A stretch of 64,000 bases of DNA from Candidatus Eiseniibacteriota bacterium (lineage in GTDB: Bacteria > Orphanbacterota > Orphanbacteria > Orphanbacterales > Orphanbacteraceae): positions 57,011-121,010 of the forward strand of contig JAJCZU010000010.1 in the NCBI GenBank assembly GCA_029262235.1. Direction: 5' to 3'. Below are positions 3,344 through 64,000 of this stretch, piece after piece. Below the pieces are notes generated by a model. The model had not been told where the DNA came from. It saw nothing but the letters and a program-made list of their open reading frames with translations, and searched no databases. The position numbers and the translations under genes are program-made. Within the stretch, counting starts at the first letter, position 1. Every line of letters starts with the position of its first letter.

Positions 3344-3420
3344 CCGCGAGCCTCCTTTCTTGATCGCGCTGGTTACTTTATAACCATACCAAGAAAGCGA
3401 GTCCGTGCATAGCGCGGGGC

Positions 3421-3545
3421 GGGCGCGGCGTCGGTTCCCCGCAGCCTGAGCCCCATTGGAGGGCCGGGGGTTCGGCAGACAGGTTTCGCGTTGCGTGTGA
3501 GCAGGCCCGACAGGGCGAAGGCGAGGAGAAGCCGACGCCGCGCAC
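3421..3545 (+). repeat. Family-1 intergenic inverted-repeat element, copy B
   Basis: The left arm GCGCGGCGTCGG (from 3423) and the right arm CCGACGCCGCGC (to 3543) are perfect complements. Between them are the conserved core blocks GTTCCCCGCAGCC, GAGCCCCATTGGAGGGCCGG and GCAGGCCCGACAGGGCGA. It sits between the end of the DMT exporter gene and the start of the beta-helix gene. Confidence 0.9.
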
Positions 3546-3570
3546 GGACCCGCGCCAGTGCCGGCTCACC

Positions 3571-13198: not shown

Positions 13199-13340
13199 CG
13201 CGGGCGCGCAGACTTCAGCCTCTCCTCGGCGTCGCCCTGTCGGGCCTGCTCTCATGAAAAGCGAAACTTGAACACCGTACCCCCGGCCCTCCAATGGGGC
13301 TCCGCCTGTGGGGAGCTGAAGCCCGCGCGCCCGTCAGTCG
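13199..13340 (-). repeat. Family-1 intergenic inverted-repeat element, copy C
   Basis: The core blocks match the other copies (GCCCTGTCGGGCCTGCTC, CCCCCGGCCCTCCAATGGGG). The arms are quite different in sequence (GGGCGCGC..CTTCAGC) but still complementary to each other (GCTGAAG..GCGCGCCC on the right, with two A/G differences). Confidence 0.85.
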
Positions 13341-13417: not shown

Positions 13418-13629
13418 AGCGAACGCTCCCCCTCCCGTCCGATCCGATCCGATCCGCCTCTTCCTCCTCTTCTCCCCCCTAAATCCCGATCGCCGGCGAG
13501 AGAGCGGGGCTGCTGTCGCTTCCCGGATTCCGCGAGCCTCTTTACTTGGCCATTCGGCCAGGCGAGCGGATCGAGGGAAGTGACAGCAGCGAACGCTCCC
13601 CCTCCGTCCGATCCGATCCGATCCGCCTC
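13418..13629. repeat. Pair of about 42-bp direct repeats
   Basis: GCGAACGCTCCCCCTCC(C)GTCC followed by GATCC steps occurs near 13419 and again near 13589, 170 bp apart, with one base indel. The second copy directly abuts the family-2 hairpin. Confidence 0.8.
13519..13580 (-). repeat. Family-2 intergenic hairpin element, copy 1
   Basis: The outer arms CTTCCCGGATTCCGC and GCGGATCGAGGGAAG pair with few mismatches. The inner stem is TTGGCC-ATTC-GGCCAG. Read on the minus strand it matches the copy at 34616-34684 through CTGGCC..GGCCAAGTA and CTCGCGG.ATCCGGGAAG. Confidence 0.8.
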
Positions 13630-13759: not shown

Positions 13760-14494
13760 ATGCAATTGGTACTACGCAATCCGCTCGTCGGGATCGTAAC
13801 GCTCGCGGCGCTTCTGTACGCAACGGGCGCAATGGGCGCGACAGTGACTGAAACGTTCGCAGGCTTTCCGGCGGGCAAGGTGATCGCGGGCGATCTGCCG
13901 GGCGGCGGCACGGCATCGGGCACCGACCTGGCGAACCTCACGGTCGGCGTCGTAAACACGGGTGGCGGACCGGACGCGGCCATCATCTTCGACTCGGGCA
14001 ATCCGACGGGCGGAGACCCGGATCTCGGCACGCCGAATCAGACGTGCGGCGGGCCAGGTGTGGGGTCGGGCGGCGAACAGGGACAGCCCTACGAAAACTG
14101 CGTCGCGTACGGCAACCTGCTGATCGTGGCGGAAGACATCGTGGACGCGGGCGGCGACGGCTTCGTTGACGACCCGGACGACGAACACGGCGGTGGCGTA
14201 ATCACGTTCGCGTTCGACGCTCCGGTGATTCCGCTCGACATCGTGATCATCGACATCGACGCGACGGAAACGGCGGACGTCGCAATCAGCAACAACGTCA
14301 TGAGCGTGGTCGTCAGCGCGACAAGCGCGGGCAACAACTCGGCCCAGACGATCGACCTTTCGGGCAAGGGCGCGATCACGGAACTCGAAGTTTCGTTCTC
14401 GGGATCGGGCGCCATCGCGCAGCTTCGCTACGAAACGGTTTCGACCGCGACGGAAGAAATGTCGTGGGGGGGCGTAAAGGAACTCTTCCGCTAG
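13760..14494 (+). CDS. Secreted hypothetical protein
   Basis: 244 residues, strong GGAGGAG before the ATG. The signal peptide is AALLYATGAMGA. The mature part is Gly/Asp-rich and beta-rich, with FDSGNPTGGDPDLGTPN and a block of hydrophobic beta strands (PLDIVIIDIDATETADVAI). This resembles the N-terminal domains of many exported PEP-CTERM or choice-of-anchor proteins. No membrane anchor follows; the protein ends EEMSWGGVKELFR. No enzyme motif. It stands alone between a repeat region and a terminator. Confidence 0.75.
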   Translation: MQLVLRNPLVGIVTLAALLYATGAMGATVTETFAGFPAGKVIAGDLPGGGTASGTDLANLTVGVVNTGGGPDAAIIFDSGNPTGGDPDLGTPNQTCGGPGVGSGGEQGQPYENCVAYGNLLIVAEDIVDAGGDGFVDDPDDEHGGGVITFAFDAPVIPLDIVIIDIDATETADVAISNNVMSVVVSATSAGNNSAQTIDLSGKGAITELEVSFSGSGAIAQLRYETVSTATEEMSWGGVKELFR

Positions 14495-30812: not shown

Positions 30813-30935
30813 CCGATGTTTTCCGGTCAGGGCCGCTTGTACTTCCAGAAGCCCGCTCGTCCTGGCCAAATGGCCAAGTACGGAGGCCGAGCGGGCTTCT
30901 CGGAAGCACATCACGACCCTGAATAAAAACGTCGG
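30813..30935. repeat. Family-2 intergenic hairpin element, copy 2 (long palindrome)
   Basis: The arms GAAGCCCGCTCG (30848-30859) and CGAGCGGGCTTC (30888-30899) are perfect. Inside lies TGGCCAAATGGCCA. Outside, CCGATGTTTT..TCAGGG pairs imperfectly with CCCTGA..AAAACGTCGG, making a palindrome of about 120 bp. Confidence 0.9.
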
Positions 30936-30937
30936 TT

Positions 30938-31035
30938 GTGGAGTGGAAGAATAAGGAAGGGAAGCGGAAGCGGAAGAGAAAGAGAAAGAGAAGAGGGGAA
31001 CGGAAAGAGAAGGGAAGAGAAAGAGAAGAGAAGAG
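30938..31035 (+). other. Polypurine tract of about 95 bp
   Basis: Almost only A and G (GGAAGCGGAAGAGAAAGAGA and similar steps) right up to the start codon of the lipoprotein gene; it also supplies its ribosome-binding purines. Confidence 0.85.
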
Positions 31036-31039
31036 ATAG

Positions 31040-31432
31040 ATGAAGAAGGATCGCGCATGGTGGGGTCGTCGATTCGTTCTCGTACTGGGGGCGCTTGCGA
31101 TCGCGTTCTCGGGATGCGCGGGCGCGTACCGCGACGCACCGATCATGATCGAAGACCTGATCCTCGAAGAGATCGCGATCGTATGGACCATGGACGGAAC
31201 AGTGCATCGCGGGATGATTGAAGCGACAGGAGACAGGGGAGTATTGCTCGTCAATCCAGACGGCGGCCGCGAGTGGATTGCACTGGGCGAGATCCGCACG
31301 CTGAAATACGCGGTCCATGACAGCAAGTCCCTTTCGAGGACAGTAAAGATTGTTCTTGGGATCTCGATCGCATATGGCGTGCTGGCCGTGATCGCTTCGC
31401 AGATCCAGTTCGGGCCGATCGGGGGAAGGTGA
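31040..31432 (+). CDS. Small lipoprotein, paralogue of the next gene
   Basis: 130 residues. The signal ends AIAFSGC (lipobox). The mature part begins AGAYRDAPIMIED and contains WTMDGTVHRG, then a C-terminal membrane span (VKIVLGISIAYGVLAVIASQI). A small Sm-like or SH3-like beta domain is possible. Stop and the next ATG overlap (TGATG). Unknown family. Confidence 0.75.
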   Translation: MKKDRAWWGRRFVLVLGALAIAFSGCAGAYRDAPIMIEDLILEEIAIVWTMDGTVHRGMIEATGDRGVLLVNPDGGREWIALGEIRTLKYAVHDSKSLSRTVKIVLGISIAYGVLAVIASQIQFGPIGGR

Positions 31433-34513: not shown

Positions 34514-34615
34514 GCAGGCTCCTTCGGACACGCGCGCCAAGTTGGCGACGCCCAAGCATACACGATGGGGAGGAGAGAGTGGGATGGGGTCGACGTCTTG
34601 CGTTCAGTGCCGTTC

Positions 34616-34684
34616 GGATTTCCCTCGACCCGCTCGGCTGGCCTGACAGGCCAAGTACGGAGCCTCGCGGGATCCGGGAAGTCC
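34616..34684 (+). repeat. Family-2 intergenic hairpin element, copy 3
   Basis: GGATTTCCC (34616-34624) pairs with GGGAAGTCC (34676-34684); the inner stem is CTGGCC-TGACA-GGCCAAG, followed by TACGGAG. The tail GTCACGGCCCTGAAAGAAAA is shared with copy 2. Confidence 0.85.
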
Positions 34685-34755
34685 GTCACGGCCCTGAAAG
34701 AAAACATCGGCCTTGGAAAGGGGCGGAAGGGAAGGAGGCGGAAGGACAAGAGGAA

Positions 34756-34904
34756 GGGGCAAACACAAGTTGTTCACCAACAGACATGGAAACAGCGCGA
34801 GGAGCTGTTCTCCGGATCCCGCCCCACCGCCTCTTCTCAGGATTCCTCTCGCCGCTCTCAGAGAGCACGGAAAAATGAGAAAGGCCGGTTCCCGGAGCCT
34901 GCGA
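34756..34904 (+). repeat. 149-bp direct repeat, first unit
   Basis: Runs from GGGGCAAACACAAGTTGTTC to CCCGGAGCCTGCGA; about 95 % identical by eye to 35082-35230. It carries the left arm of a family-2 hairpin at its end. Confidence 0.92.
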
Positions 34905-35041
34905 TCGTTACCACGCGGGAGACCGGTGGTTGTTTTCTTACCGCCGAAATGGCGGTCGGGAATTGGCCAATCCGCATGTGCCTAACAGTCCCATTGGCCG
35001 TACGCCAGGACGAGCGGGCTGAGGGATCCGGCCTTCCTCAT
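34877..35041 (+). repeat. Family-2 element, copy 4, interrupted
   Basis: The arms GAGAAAGGCCGGTTCCC and GAGGGATCCGGCCTTCCTC are those of copy 5, but about 85 bases, containing another TTGGCCAAT and a GCCGAAATGGC hairpin, lie between the left arm and the core CATTGGCCGTACGCCAGG. Confidence 0.7.
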
Positions 35042-35081
35042 ATTCTCGCTCCTCTTCTCTTCTTCACGCCGCGTGTAGCAG

Positions 35082-35230
35082 GGGGCAAGCGCAAGTTGTT
35101 CACCAACAGACATGAAAACAGCGCGAGGAGTTGTTCTCCGGATCACGCCCCATCGCCTCTTCTCCGGATTCCTCTCGCCGCTCTCAGAGAGCACGGAAAA
35201 ATGAGAAAGGCCGGTTCCCGGAGCCTGCGA
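35082..35230 (+). repeat. 149-bp direct repeat, second unit
   Basis: Second copy of 34756-34904, starting GGGGCAAGCGCAAGTTGTTC, with a handful of substitutions. Confidence 0.92.
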
Positions 35231-35282
35231 GTCCCATTGGCCGTACGCCAGGACGAGCAGGCGGAGGGAATCCGGCCTTCTC
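35204..35282 (+). repeat. Family-2 intergenic hairpin element, copy 5
   Basis: GAGAAAGGCCGGTTCCCGGAGCCTGC pairs with the right arm GCAGGCGGAGGGAATCCGGCCTTCTC. The inner stem is TGGC-CGTA-CGCCA. It ends 23 bases after the stop of the metallopeptidase gene and may also act as its terminator. Confidence 0.85.
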
Positions 35283-35305
35283 ATACGTTCTGTTCTCTCC
35301 TACCC

Positions 35306-57416: not shown

Positions 57417-58328
57417 ATGCGCTTCCCTCACTATCATTTCGTTTTTCCCGCAGCCGCGGCGACCCTCGCGCTTGCGTGCGCCGGCGACCCGGCCGGCATC
57501 GATCGAAACGCACCCCCGCTCCAGTTCGTGATCCAGGAAGCTCCCGCGCTCTTCGCGGACAGTGAGCAGGATGCCGTTGTCGCCGACCTTCGTGTTCTGA
57601 TCTTCGATGTGACGGAAGATCCCTTCATCCGCAACGACTCACTCGAAAATGCGCCGCTCGTGATCGACGACACGCTGTTCGTGAACGAACCGGAGTCGGA
57701 TTTCGCGCTGGCGAACGAAACGTATGAACTCGACGTCGGGAACGAGCCCCGCGACTTCCGCGTGTACGTCTATCGGATCGTGGAGTCGGGCGCCCTCGGC
57801 GCGCGCACCGCGCGCGGCATCGCGCGCGGAGAAGATCGCGCACTCAGCGTGTATCTCACGCCGTCCGCAACGCCGACACAGTACGGCGTACAGGTTCTCG
57901 AGACGTGGGCGCGCCGCGGTGAGGCCGCCCACACGATCCCGATCGTGCTCGCGAATCCGGACCCCGTCGGCGGCTTCCAGTTCGACCTGGCCTTTCCGCC
58001 CGGGCTCGTCACGAGCCTGAACCGCATCGTAGTCGACGAGAGCAGCCGGCTGTTCCTCGAAGCCGATTCCAGCTCGATCGTAAACCTCGGCGACAATCCG
58101 CTCGAAGAAAGCGACCTCTGGCGCGTGATCGTGTTCAGCGACGACAGCGTCCGGACGATCGAACCGGGGCATGATGTCGTTCTCTATCTGGAAGCCGACA
58201 TCGGCGAACCGACCTTCGAAGATTCCCTGCAGCTCACGGGCGTCGTGATCGCCGACCCGTCCGGGTTCTCGATCGAAAGCGGGAGCGTGGTGGTGCAGAA
58301 CTCGATCGTCCATCTGGTGTCGCCATGA
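57417..58328 (+). CDS. Lipoprotein with cohesin-like domain
   Basis: 303 residues, GAGGGCCTCGAC before ATG. Signal ends TLALAC (lipobox). The second half has the cohesin-type pattern: HTIPIVLANPDPVGGFQFDLAF, a long beta region, RVIVFSDDSVRTIEPGHDVVLYLEADI, and LTGVVIADPSGFSI. Cohesins bind dockerins; the next gene, overlapping by four bases (ATGA), encodes a dockerin-bearing protein. A surface-anchored cohesin-dockerin pair is inferred. Confidence 0.75.
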   Translation: MRFPHYHFVFPAAAATLALACAGDPAGIDRNAPPLQFVIQEAPALFADSEQDAVVADLRVLIFDVTEDPFIRNDSLENAPLVIDDTLFVNEPESDFALANETYELDVGNEPRDFRVYVYRIVESGALGARTARGIARGEDRALSVYLTPSATPTQYGVQVLETWARRGEAAHTIPIVLANPDPVGGFQFDLAFPPGLVTSLNRIVVDESSRLFLEADSSSIVNLGDNPLEESDLWRVIVFSDDSVRTIEPGHDVVLYLEADIGEPTFEDSLQLTGVVIADPSGFSIESGSVVVQNSIVHLVSP

Positions 58329-61300
58329 GCACGCGCCGCACGCCGTTCACGCTCTTCACGCTGTTCCTTGCGCTGTTCCTTCCGCTGTTCCTTGCGACGC
58401 TCTCTGGAAACGTCGCCGTTGCCAACGCGGAAACGATCCAGCTCGACGAGCCGTTTTTCGTCGTGCCGGACGCTGCGCGCGCACACGCCGCGCGCGCACA
58501 CGCGCCGGAAGCGCCCGCACACGAAACTCGTTCCAAAGGCGGCGGCTATACGGTGATCGAAGACTTCGACTGCCCGTCCGGCAACTGCCTCTTCGCGCTT
58601 TCTAACAGCGTGCAGAGGACGACGTATTCGCCGGTGGGCCAGACGTGTTCGTTTGCCACGACGTTTGTTTCGCGGGCCGGCGTTTCGACAAACTGGAGCG
58701 ACAACATCGATCACGCGAACATGATGGACCCGCCCGGGAACGGGAAGGGGGCCCAGTGCCTTTCCACGAATCTCATGGGATACAAGAACTCCGGGTGCGA
58801 CTCCGTGCTCGAGTTTCAGATTCTCTTTCGCGATTACACGTCGAGCGCGTTTTCAGGAAGCGCGATTCGCGTTCACTTCACACCTTCCGAGTACCCGAAT
58901 ACGCAGGAGCAGGTGCGGGTCTACATGCAGATCGACTACGCGGAAGCCGGACCGGCTCTGAATGTGGTCGAGATCTCCGACGCCGCGGACTGGCAGACGA
59001 TCAGCATGGATCTGATACCGACCAATACCGTGAATCAGGTGCTGATCGCGGTGGGCGGCCCGTCCACAACGGACGTCGATGTCTATTTCGACGACCTGGA
59101 GGTGTATGACTACATCGGGCCGTCCACAAGCTGCGCCTACAATCCGAAATCGATCGGCTTCGGCAACACGCTTTTCCCGGGGCAGTCCAGCCAGCGCACG
59201 TTCGACGTCATCAACACGGCAACTTCAGGGATTCTTTTCCTCAACCCGTCAGCCGCCGCGTGCAACGCATTCTCCGTGACCGCGGGCCAGGGAGCCACCT
59301 ATCTTCAGCCCGGCCAGTCGCACAAGATCACGGTCACGTTTTCGCCGCCGTCGCACGGCACGTACGAATGCGAACTCGCCCTCGGGAACCCTTCGTGCGA
59401 GCCGTTCCTGATGACGGGAGGGACGCGCGCGAACTGCATCGTCTCCGAGACGACGATCGACTTCGGCGATCAGATCGTGGGCGCACCGCAAGCGCAACTT
59501 TCCTTCTATCTTAAGAACGAGGGGGGCAGCGCGTACGACTTCCCCGGCTCCGATCCACTGAACTGCATCGGCTTCGGATATGAGATCGAACCGCCGCCCG
59601 GCTTGATCGCGCCCGGGGATTCGATCCAGTTTGTCGTGAGCTTCGCCCCGCCCGACACGGGCCTGTACAATTGCGAAGCGTTCATCGTGACCGACTGCGA
59701 CCCGATCACGCTCACGGGGCGCGGACTTCTCGACCTTCCCTGCGTCATCGTGCCCGACACGCTCCAGTTCGGGGAAGTCGATCTCGGCGACACCGCGGAG
59801 ATGACCTTCACGATCGAAAATCAATCGTTCGGAACGACCATCGGCGGCTCGCTCGCGGACTGCCAGGGACTGTTTCAGTTCCTTGACGGGCGTACTTTCT
59901 CTCTGGGTCCGGGCCAGTCGACGGAAATGACTGTCAGTTACATACCGACGACGGTCAGAAACGACACGTGCACGCTGCAGCTCGGACTCGCGACCTGCCC
60001 GTTGCTGACATTCGTCGGCAGTGGTAATCAGGACGCCGAGTGCGTCGTGTTTCCCTCTGAATACGACTTCGGCGTCATCAAGGGGATCGGCTCACCCGGC
60101 ATCGTCGACGTGACGATTCGGAACGACGGAGGACGGCTCATGACGGGCACCGTACCCGCGAGCTGCGGCCCGTTCCGCGCCGTCGGCGGCCCCGTCGACT
60201 ACAGCCTCGGATTCCAGCAGTCCACCGTGATTCGCTTCGAGTTCGAACCGGAAGTGAACGGGCCGGTTTCGTGTGAGTATCCTCTGGGGAACGAATGCGA
60301 TTCGCTGACGCTTACGGGCACAGGAAACATCTGCGAGGTCTTCGAAACCACACTCGACTATGCGGACGTACTCGTCGGAGATTCGCTCACGCAGTCGTTT
60401 ACGGTGCGCAACAATTCCGAGAGTCCCGTCTCGTACTCACTGCCGTCCGGGTGCACCGCTTTCACGGTTGCGACGGACGACCGCGACTTCGAACTGCAGC
60501 CCGGCTTCGGCAGGGAAGTCTCCGTTACGTTCGTCCCCGATACCCTCGGCTTCTTTTCGTGCACCATCGCCACCGGACCCGGCTGTGACTCGGTACACGT
60601 TTCCGGTACCGGTATCGGGTCGCCGGAATGCGTTGTCGAACCGGCCTCGATCAACTTCGGCACGATTCCCGAAGGCGGCCTGACCGAAGACACGTTCACG
60701 ATTCGTAACGAAGGCACCGCGATTCTGACCGCGACCGTGCCCGCTTCCTGCGGCGTATTTACGGTCACGAACCCGGGGTCCATCGAACTCGAACCGGGCC
60801 AGGAAGCGACGTTCGTCGTCGTGTTCGGCAACATCGAGAGCCCGGGATCCTATTCCTGTCAACTCGACCTCGGCGGAAGCGAAGGGTGCGGAACGCTCTC
60901 GCTGTCGGGCGTTGCGGAAGGGCCGCCGTCGTGTCTCGTTACGCCGGCCGCCATTACATTCGGCTCCGTTAACATCGACGAAACGGCCGAAGAAACGATC
61001 ACGATCACGAACGGCGGCGGCGGTCTTCTGACAGGCACGATCGCCTCCGGGTGCGGACCGTTCGTAATCGTGGAAGGGGACCACTCCTACTCGCTCGCCG
61101 CCGGGCAGGCGCGTTCTTTCACCGTTCGCTTCGCCCCGACCGTGGCCGACAGCGAGAGCTGCGCGCTCACCCTGGGTGGTTCGTGCGGCACGATCGACGT
61201 GTCCGGTTTCGGAAACGCGGTCTGCGCGCTGGATCTCGACACACCCGCGAACGTGACCGAAGGAGACGCCGCCGTCATTACGTGGACGTCCCGTTTCTGC

Positions 61301-62665
61301 GAAGGCGATGTTCTGCTCGAACTCTTCGCCGACAACAGCGTCTGCGGCTCGATCGGCTCGGCCCCGATCGCCGACGGCTCGCTGGCATGGAACGTGACCG
61401 CGTGCCAGGAAGTAGCGGGCGATTATCGCGTGCGCGCCACGACCGACGATAACGTCGTCTTTCTCTCGGGCCCCTTCACGATCGTACCCGGCGCCGGCCT
61501 GAACCTCTCCGCCGACGCCATCGATTTCACGTTCGATCCCCTGAATCCCGAGCAGGCCCTCTCTTCCGATCTCACGATTACGAACGACGGAACCGGCACG
61601 CTCTCGTGGAGTGCAGAGCCGAATCACCCCGCCATTCACCTTCTCTTCACGTCGGGGACGATCGCCCCGGGCGCTTCGTTCGATCTGTCCGTCGTCGTCG
61701 ATCCGGACGAGGCCGAGGGGGAACTCTTCGGTGAGATCACTCTCTATACGAACGATCCCGGCGCGCCGATGACAACCATCGCGGTCTCGCTCGCGGTGCG
61801 CCAGTATCAGCCGGGCGACGTGGACGTCGACGACGACATCGACCTCTTCGATCTCGCGGCGCTCGTGGAGCACGTGCTCGCCCGCACGTTCCTGTTCCCG
61901 GAGATTGTCGAGCTCGGCATCCCCGATGTGAACGGGGACGGCTTCATCGACGTGAGCGATATCGTGAGGCTTGCCCGGATCCTGCTCGGCGGATCTTTCG
62001 ACCGTGGCGGTCAGGCAGGCGATTCGCACGGCGACGGACCGCCCCTTGCCGTCAGAAGCGCAGGAGCTGACCTCGAGGTTCTCGCAAACGGCGCCGCTCC
62101 CGGCGCTGCCTGGTTCGTTCTTCGTGTTGAAGAAGGCAATACGCCCTTTGCGAAGGTGACCGACCGGATCAGCGCGGGCGAAGGGTACGATCTCATCAGC
62201 GAGCGGCGCGACGAGAGTTTCCGGATTCTGGCGGTGCCGAACGGCAAGGCCTCCGGTGAGCTGATTCTGCGATGGGAGGGCGCCCCCGACGGAGCCTCGA
62301 TCGCAGGCGCCTACGTGGCCCGCTACCGTAGCTCGTGGCTGAAGGGCAGCCTCGACAGCTCCGGCCTCACCGGCCAGGGGACAGGAGGACGCTTCACGAT
62401 GGCTCCCGCCGAACCGAACCCGTTCCGGGACGGAACCACGCTCCGCTGGACCCTCCCGTCTTCGGGCCCCCTGACCATCGGGGTCTACGATATCGCAGGG
62501 CGGCGCGTCAGGTCGCTCATTACGGGCTCACGAGCCGCCGGAGCAGGCGCAATCACGTGGAACGGCCGCAATGAAGCCGGAACGCGTGTCCCTGCAGGCA
62601 CTTACTTCGTTCGCGCCCAGTCCGGTGGCCGAAGCGTGACCCACAAAGTCATCCTTTTCCGGTAG
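58325..62665 (+). CDS. Large secreted ASH-repeat protein with dockerin and FlgD-like domains
   Basis: 1446 residues. Signal region LFLALFLPLFLATLSGNVAVANA. A jelly-roll-like domain occupies about 75-260. Then come about seven ASH/choice-of-anchor-D type units of 95 residues (CxVxPxxxxFGxVxxGxxxxxxFTIxN..LxPGQ..xxVxFxPxxxGxYxCxLxLG..C..LxLxG), each with paired cysteines. After another Ig-like unit and one more ASH unit comes a dockerin pair (DVDVDDDIDLFDLAALVEHV, DVNGDGFIDVSDIVRLARIL). The C-terminus is the FlgD-like fold (IGVYDIAGRRVRSLI, WNGRNEAGTRVPAGTYFVRA). A surface scaffold or adhesin is the likely role. Its start overlaps the cohesin-like lipoprotein gene. Confidence 0.9.
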   Translation: MSTRRTPFTLFTLFLALFLPLFLATLSGNVAVANAETIQLDEPFFVVPDAARAHAARAHAPEAPAHETRSKGGGYTVIEDFDCPSGNCLFALSNSVQRTTYSPVGQTCSFATTFVSRAGVSTNWSDNIDHANMMDPPGNGKGAQCLSTNLMGYKNSGCDSVLEFQILFRDYTSSAFSGSAIRVHFTPSEYPNTQEQVRVYMQIDYAEAGPALNVVEISDAADWQTISMDLIPTNTVNQVLIAVGGPSTTDVDVYFDDLEVYDYIGPSTSCAYNPKSIGFGNTLFPGQSSQRTFDVINTATSGILFLNPSAAACNAFSVTAGQGATYLQPGQSHKITVTFSPPSHGTYECELALGNPSCEPFLMTGGTRANCIVSETTIDFGDQIVGAPQAQLSFYLKNEGGSAYDFPGSDPLNCIGFGYEIEPPPGLIAPGDSIQFVVSFAPPDTGLYNCEAFIVTDCDPITLTGRGLLDLPCVIVPDTLQFGEVDLGDTAEMTFTIENQSFGTTIGGSLADCQGLFQFLDGRTFSLGPGQSTEMTVSYIPTTVRNDTCTLQLGLATCPLLTFVGSGNQDAECVVFPSEYDFGVIKGIGSPGIVDVTIRNDGGRLMTGTVPASCGPFRAVGGPVDYSLGFQQSTVIRFEFEPEVNGPVSCEYPLGNECDSLTLTGTGNICEVFETTLDYADVLVGDSLTQSFTVRNNSESPVSYSLPSGCTAFTVATDDRDFELQPGFGREVSVTFVPDTLGFFSCTIATGPGCDSVHVSGTGIGSPECVVEPASINFGTIPEGGLTEDTFTIRNEGTAILTATVPASCGVFTVTNPGSIELEPGQEATFVVVFGNIESPGSYSCQLDLGGSEGCGTLSLSGVAEGPPSCLVTPAAITFGSVNIDETAEETITITNGGGGLLTGTIASGCGPFVIVEGDHSYSLAAGQARSFTVRFAPTVADSESCALTLGGSCGTIDVSGFGNAVCALDLDTPANVTEGDAAVITWTSRFCEGDVLLELFADNSVCGSIGSAPIADGSLAWNVTACQEVAGDYRVRATTDDNVVFLSGPFTIVPGAGLNLSADAIDFTFDPLNPEQALSSDLTITNDGTGTLSWSAEPNHPAIHLLFTSGTIAPGASFDLSVVVDPDEAEGELFGEITLYTNDPGAPMTTIAVSLAVRQYQPGDVDVDDDIDLFDLAALVEHVLARTFLFPEIVELGIPDVNGDGFIDVSDIVRLARILLGGSFDRGGQAGDSHGDGPPLAVRSAGADLEVLANGAAPGAAWFVLRVEEGNTPFAKVTDRISAGEGYDLISERRDESFRILAVPNGKASGELILRWEGAPDGASIAGAYVARYRSSWLKGSLDSSGLTGQGTGGRFTMAPAEPNPFRDGTTLRWTLPSSGPLTIGVYDIAGRRVRSLITGSRAAGAGAITWNGRNEAGTRVPAGTYFVRAQSGGRSVTHKVILFR

Positions 62666-63525: not shown

Positions 63526-63635
63526 CTCGGCGAACCGGTCTGCGCGCGCGTGCGGAAGTCGGAGCGGAGGAGGAAAACAAAGAAGAGAGAGTATCGAGCA
63601 TTGAGCCCCGCGCTCTCTTCTTCCGTACTCCGCGC

Positions 63636-63758
63636 GAGCGGCGTGTCGGTTCCCCGCAGCCCGAGCCCCATTGGAGGGCCGGGGGCACGGCATTCTCGTT
63701 TTGACCATCTTGTCAGCAGGCCCGACAGGGCGAGGGCGAGGAGAACTGACACGCCCGA
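63636..63758 (+). repeat. Family-1 intergenic inverted-repeat element, copy D
   Basis: Arms GGCGTGTCGGTTCCCC and GAGGAGAACTGACACGCC pair over about 16 bases. The core blocks CGAGCCCCATTGGAGGGCCG and GCAGGCCCGACAGGGCGA are as in copy B, although the arms differ from copies A to C. Confidence 0.9.
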
Positions 63759-63877
63759 GCCAGCGCATTCCGACCGCCAAAACAAATCGAATCCGTTCTT
63801 CCCTCCTCTTCCGTACTCCGTGCGCGCGGAAATGTCGCGGGGGGGGCACTCGCCGATCAAAGCGTCGGCCTCCGCGC

Positions 63878-64000
63878 GAGCGGCGTGTCGGTTCCCCGCA
63901 GCCCGAGCCCCATTGGAGGGCCGGGGGTACGGCATTCTCGTTTTGACTATCTTGTCAGCAGGCCCGACAGGGCGAGGGCGAGGAGAACTGACACGCCCGA
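63878..64000 (+). repeat. Family-1 intergenic inverted-repeat element, copy E
   Basis: Nearly identical to copy D, exactly 242 bp downstream (alignable from 63628/63870). It runs to the window end. Confidence 0.9.

Follow-up and report, generated by a model that had tools for sequence, protein, structure and literature searches.

A palindrome of more than a hundred base pairs between two genes raises the question of whether it belongs to that place alone or is one copy of something dispersed through the genome and, if so, what spreads and shapes the copies. Within the window, the 64,000-nucleotide stretch of DNA analysed here, positions 30813-30935 are the top hit of a window-wide palindrome scan (score 27.5; best in the shuffled window 20.5). 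An earlier note on this DNA had described near-continuous pairing over 120 bp at this locus, between divergent genes, and both observations hold. The segment folds as RNA at -70.5 kcal/mol (shuffle mean -38.3, z -7.10) with almost end-to-end pairing, the z of its DNA fold is -7.15, and it is flanked by an ABC transporter gene on the minus strand and a gene at 31040 on the plus strand. Long GA-rich purine tracts (GAAGAGAAGAGAAGG) are found beside hairpins (in the window at 30952-31037, and in many element flanks) as well as elsewhere between genes. We consider it rather probable that the palindrome belongs to a genus-restricted, non-autonomous family of small palindromic mobile elements (about 110-160 bp), of the YPAL/ERIC/REPIN kind, that is recognised by its structure. 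The relevant features of the window are the following.

30813..30935, plus strand: family hairpin with a type A centre (TGGCCAAATGGCC-AAGTACGGAG); fold z -7.1, covariance model 84.9 bits, E 8.9e-21
30863..30888, plus strand: conserved core TGGCC AAAT GGCC with 3' bulge AAGTACGGA and closing GGCC; columns invariant in 20-copy alignments, 18 exact genome copies
13483..13617, minus strand: family hairpin of type A' (AAGTAAAGAG), located upstream of, and directed away from, gene 13760-14494; model 88.0 bits, palindrome scan 25.5
34588..34712, plus strand: family hairpin of type A with a shifted loop (GGCC TGACA GGCC); model 88.4 bits, palindrome scan 24.0
34877..35043, minus strand: family hairpin of the GTAC-centred sub-type with an interruption of about 82 nt (34906-34987), seen by comparison with an uninterrupted copy
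35187..35299, minus strand: family hairpin of the GTAC-centred sub-type, assigned from model R1 (23.3 bits), model R2 (54.8 bits) and context
34751..35230, no strand given: 154-bp direct duplication, 94% (34751-34904 / 35077-35230), carrying part of both minus-strand copies at 34877 and 35187
1529-1647, 3413-3563, 13215-13326, 63628-63758 and 63870-64000, both orientations: dispersed repeat of about 110-130 bp

The TGGCCNNNNGGCCA centre occurs twice in the window where 0.05 occurrences are expected. Five copies had been said to share this centre, which is exact only at 13547 and 30863; in the copy at 34616 it is shifted (GGCC-TGACA-GGCCAAGTACGGAG), and in those at 34877 and 35204 it is shorter (TGGC-GTAC-GGCCAATGGG, lacking AAGTACGGAG) and defines a sub-type of one hairpin family. 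Copies 13493, 30813 and 34596 are of sub-type A and copies 34877 and 35188 of sub-type C, and with respect to the model 13493, 34877 and 35188 are minus-strand copies. The copy at 34877 is interrupted, as had been noticed, and its insert of about 82 nt holds a short inverted repeat of its own (ACCGCCATTTCGGCGGT). The hairpin at 35187..35299 begins about 10 bp past the stop of an M36 peptidase gene (35306, minus strand). The "family 1" hairpins of the earlier note may correspond to the GTAC-centred sub-type, to neighbouring GTCCTGTCGCGCC hairpins or to the 130-bp dispersed repeat, whose copies are 75-98% alike, have an inverted structure of their own and lie mostly near gene 3' ends. Elsewhere in the window, 58325-62665 encodes a large secreted protein that has choice-of-anchor D repeats and a tail of T9SS type and that weakly matches OS_HP2 (seleno)protein.

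The genome-wide search for the centre proposed in that note gives 18 exact copies across the 4.47-Mb genome of TGGCCNNNNGGCCA extended on the right by AAGTACGGAG, and none when the motif is read backwards. A covariance model built from 20 copies (R1) detects 61 genome places at E<=1e-3; a model built from 70 copies with the arm structure made explicit (R2) detects about 80 distinct places at E<=2e-4, a lower bound since 150 first-look candidates were scored per genome, with a few R2 rows being one hairpin read on both strands. Model E-values, which are rough, reach down to 1e-26. Tandem copies are spaced 134-168 bp. The congener G001 (82% complete, 830 contigs) has four convincing copies; its contigs C226, C595, C220 and C344 often stop a few hundred bases or less from a hairpin, so that G001 copy counts are underestimates. 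The covariance models found no family member in five other genomes of the same family or in 109 further genomes. Wider spread by the centre motif was rejected, as its sole other match in genome contigs is coding sequence of a pyruvate dehydrogenase-like gene; viral contigs contain no match to the motif. Rfam gave no match in the window at gathering thresholds, and for eight loci only two weak miRNA matches far below gathering scores.

The hairpins are about 100-160 nt long and share an anatomy. Outermost are arms of 20-45 bp, different between subfamilies and paired within each copy, followed by a fixed box TTCYC/GRGAA and a small internal loop, usually TC opposite TC or C. Further inside, an inner helix semi-conserved around CGCTCG carries the near-invariant and asymmetric apical core YCC-TGGCC-AAAT-GGCC, with a one-sided 3' bulge and a closing GG. 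The bulge sets the sub-type, being AAGTACGGA or AAGTAAAGA in A and CACCACGGA in B, with the shortened TGGC-GTAC-GGCCAATGGG in C. The outer arms are unrelated between subfamilies, and neither conserved terminal inverted repeats nor any other conserved terminus, nor a GTAG/CGTC-type head, was found in the hairpin alignments; the length is also outside the 20-40 bp of REPs. Among 76 distinct rows, standard pairs occupy 86.8% of cells compared with 72.4% in shuffles, double-sided changes occur in 24 of the 30 tested pairs, and the covariation score is 0.377 versus 0.136 for shuffled alignments and at most 0.115 with the partners slid; the alignment was fitted to the model, which favours structure, but variable arm columns still show up to four Watson-Crick types each. 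Alignments and covariation thus bear out the earlier statement that the arms differ between copies yet pair within them. A recurrent A.C mismatch (G.T on the other strand) is present beside the TTCYC box (alignment A3 columns 25/142 and 27/140) in about a third of the copies, across unrelated arms.

The gene positions against which copies were placed come from a home-made codon-bias caller, which makes the location counts approximate. Of 80 copies, 35 lie between convergent and 30 between co-directional genes, five lie between divergent genes (30813 among them, an unusual setting for the family) and the rest overlap called genes or fall at contig ends; convergent spaces therefore hold 35 of 70 classified copies versus 62 of 395 gene pairs. 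The 5' side of the hairpin is turned toward the nearer gene border in 62 of the 70, in a split of 32:3 for convergent, 13:2 for co-directional sense, 14:1 for co-directional antisense and 3:2 for divergent copies; the 30813 copy is an exception to this rule. Where an intergenic region holds several copies (n=16), 12 show the order plus then minus, 13 contain a plus-to-minus order and none shows minus then plus. Many sense copies start 3-40 bp past a stop codon. The stops beside copies are TAG in 20 cases, TAA in 8 and TGA in 2 (elsewhere 141, 78 and 159, respectively), so TA-containing stops make up 28 of 30 beside copies versus 219 of 378 elsewhere (p=5.5e-5). Truncation of coding 3' ends by insertion was rejected, as the host proteins appear naturally ended.

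Comparison with G001 shows that copies differ in presence between congeners. At C4:948977, the same two convergent genes are found in G001 with no hairpin between them, the stop being TAG here and TAA in G001, and in the outgroup G005 the two orthologous genes overlap with no space between them, an arrangement for which parsimony puts the insertion on the branch of the genome under study. A G001 contig that is otherwise collinear lacks the hairpin at C4:48065; the outgroup polarises only C4:948977, and either a gain here or a loss in G001 could account for one of the two absences. The G001 ortholog of the gene at C3:4479 has TGA as its stop, and behind it lies a hairpin that belongs to another family (GGCGGGTCCTGTCGCGCC...). 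At the empty G001 site of C4:948977 a small dyad is predicted whose loop contains the stop codon. The search for target duplications found one possible, imperfect 10-bp repeat (TTCCGTTTTA / TTTCGTTTTG) at C4:948977 and nothing clear at C4:48065. A 900-bp island of two plus and three minus copies is present at L095:4934-5831 and L100:4994-5865, 85% alike, starting about 5 bp past a stop codon at loci without detected similarity in the flanking genes; it opens with half a hairpin copy (5' arm and start of the core only). Three copies are shared with G001, and two of them are conserved far above the surrounding intergenic DNA, which could reflect function rather than selfishness. One of these two, the G001 copy L121:435-539, has a 26-bp mini-hairpin (GTGCAGCC TCC GGCTGCAC) in its inner stem compared with L088:5074-5184. 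A second hairpin family, GGGTCCTGTCGCGCC ... GGCGCGCCACCC, occurs beside or in place of core-family hairpins at gene 3' ends (L113, L090, L107, L123, L104 and L099; in G001, L187 and L122). The empty-site comparison called for in the earlier note has thus found empty sites and copies that share ancestry, not unrelated terminators. The note's description of a recently active element class is supported in large part, by the roughly 80 related copies, the two G001 presence/absence sites, the C3:4479 replacement and the 900-bp island.

The searches for a mover, which covered Y1 transposases and reverse transcriptases, were negative. The Y1 (HUH) transposase PF01797 had no match in G000, the genome under study (5 of 14 control genomes were positive), and the reverse transcriptase PF00078 is absent from G000. 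A REP/RAYT or IS200 origin was rejected because PF01797 is lacking, and retroposition by a resident reverse transcriptase because none was found; a larger composite element with hairpin ends was rejected too, since flanks and spacers show no homology except for the other hairpin family and the duplicated island. On the reading as mobile elements, the copies would multiply by inserting and by duplicating locally, for the most part next to genes and in many cases immediately after a stop codon. Conservation is of structure (bulged apical core, fixed internal loops and complementary arms), from which we infer a structure-reading step; an enzyme might act on the hairpin in its extruded or single-stranded form, or replication might switch templates there. 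With pairing as the sole requirement the arms are free to drift, and they would probably be re-matched by template switching between arms, a process that would explain the near-perfect Watson-Crick arms with almost no G.U. Switching of this sort is known to alter the arms of quasi-palindromes (PMC7202029). Once in a transcript, the element would fold into a highly stable hairpin of the 3' UTR, with the potential to terminate the mRNA or to shield it, and some copies have likely been co-opted as terminators or exonuclease barriers, a role also suggested for 3'-end stem-loops such as REP and ERIC (PMC1590033). The fuller proposition, that this is mobile DNA read by hairpin shape and not by end sequence, which would insert at gene borders with a preference for TA-containing stops or terminator-like dyads, keep its core constant while renewing its arms as complementary strands, and be moved by neither RAYT/IS200 nor a reverse transcriptase, is in this complete form unlikely.

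The same data can be read without mobility in the foreground. The hairpins might be functional RNAs at mRNA 3' ends, terminators or 3'-to-5' exonuclease barriers kept by selection, with dispersal secondary or ancient, an explanation that we regard as possible though doubtful. The convergent enrichment given above speaks for it, as does the fact that for 32 of the 35 convergent copies the closer gene is the one with the same sense as the copy, whose start is often less than 40 bp past the stop. Several short convergent spaces (L109, L178 and L117) contain a single copy, conserved loops with covarying stems are the pattern of a structured RNA, and orthologous copies are conserved above their surroundings. 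Element-free orthologs, moreover, carry a simple terminator-like hairpin at the gene end; those of the M36 peptidase beside 35188 end in simple short hairpins in G002 and G005. Covariation alone does not tell which strand or nucleic acid folds, however, and none of three tests (mismatches, fold energy and U-tract) gave a sign of selection on the sense RNA. Isolated mismatches on the sense strand comprise 2 G.T versus 24 A.C, many of the latter at one recurrent position, so that the bias does not speak for the opposite strand either. The two strands are about equal in fold energy, with no advantage for the sense strand, and TTTT within 12 nt after the hairpin is found in 0 of 74 tails (T fraction 0.17). 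Also against a selected RNA, 15 of the 30 co-directional copies are antisense, upstream of a start codon, and copies are present in one congener and absent from the other.

The equal stability of the palindromes on the two strands fits a role of the hairpins as DNA, in which supercoiling at gene borders would be taken up by cruciforms or by sites that bind proteins of gyrase or nucleoid type. Binding of this type has been proposed for BIMEs, and the border-facing orientation, which is independent of the direction of transcription, and the inverted pairs also agree with it. A dimer-binding site would nonetheless conserve the sequence of the arms, and here only the small core is conserved; there is no known binding protein, and copies are gained and lost between congeners, which makes this role improbable. 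That the copies are unrelated intrinsic terminators, alike by chance, is hardly credible: ordinary short terminators do exist in the genome and many copies lie at gene ends, but the sharing of the core is far above chance, the stems covary and the E-values are those of a family. Canonical intrinsic terminators were rejected, the U-tract being missing from every tail.

If the preferred reading as structure-recognised mobile elements is true, the conservation of core and pairing in the face of arm replacement points to a structure-guided mobiliser or to continual correction of the palindrome by template switching. The family would also offer dozens of natural replicates of stem evolution, and mobile hairpins would be rewriting gene 3' ends in this lineage, replacing ordinary terminators.

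For most palindromic repeats of bacteria, recognition relies on conserved ends or heads, and ERIC elements have a sequence consensus over their whole length. Known as well as IRU or RU-1, the latter are 127-bp palindromes of enterobacteria (PMC2229807); like them, the hairpins described here are intergenic palindromes of similar length with a proposed effect on mRNA stability, but unlike ERIC, with its 7-bp terminal inverted repeat ending in TA, their ends are not conserved. Termini that are not conserved also separate them from most MITEs. YPAL (RU-2) elements are 168-bp palindromes of Yersinia (PMC2229807), and the likeness to their description consists in a similar size, internal instead of terminal inverted repeats, a composition that is not A+T-rich, the lack of a TA-terminated terminal inverted repeat, and recent mobility inferred from empty and filled sites (here two empty in G001). 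YPAL targets lie next to dyad symmetry, and a dyad is likewise predicted at the empty C4:948977 site. YPAL target duplications are reported as variable, 3-26 bp (PMC2229807), whereas here the two sites gave at most one possible, imperfect 10-bp repeat. In contrast to YPAL, the arms are hypervariable and covary around a conserved core, and the host belongs to another lineage.

REPs are 20-40 bp long, with a GTAG-type head and a Y1 transposase of PF01797 (PMC2817692, PMC3116915). The present family resembles the REP/BIME/REPIN group as high-copy extragenic palindromes that form inverted pairs and lie near gene 3' ends, but its hairpins exceed 100 bp, no head is seen and no PF01797 gene accompanies them. 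The repetitive hairpin-forming elements of sponge mitochondria, whose stems are conserved and loops variable (PMC2800124), are similarly invasive, intergenic and present or absent between relatives; conservation is reversed here, with a constant apical core and stems that change in a compensated way. Intrinsic (Rho-independent) terminators share the position directly behind stops and between convergent genes, but the hairpins are several times longer, lack a U-tract, have a conserved apical core and differ in presence between congeners. In all, a small mobile palindromic repeat is a known kind of element, and the conserved asymmetric core, the hypervariable covarying arms, the border-facing orientation and the lack of a RAYT set this one apart from every family compared.
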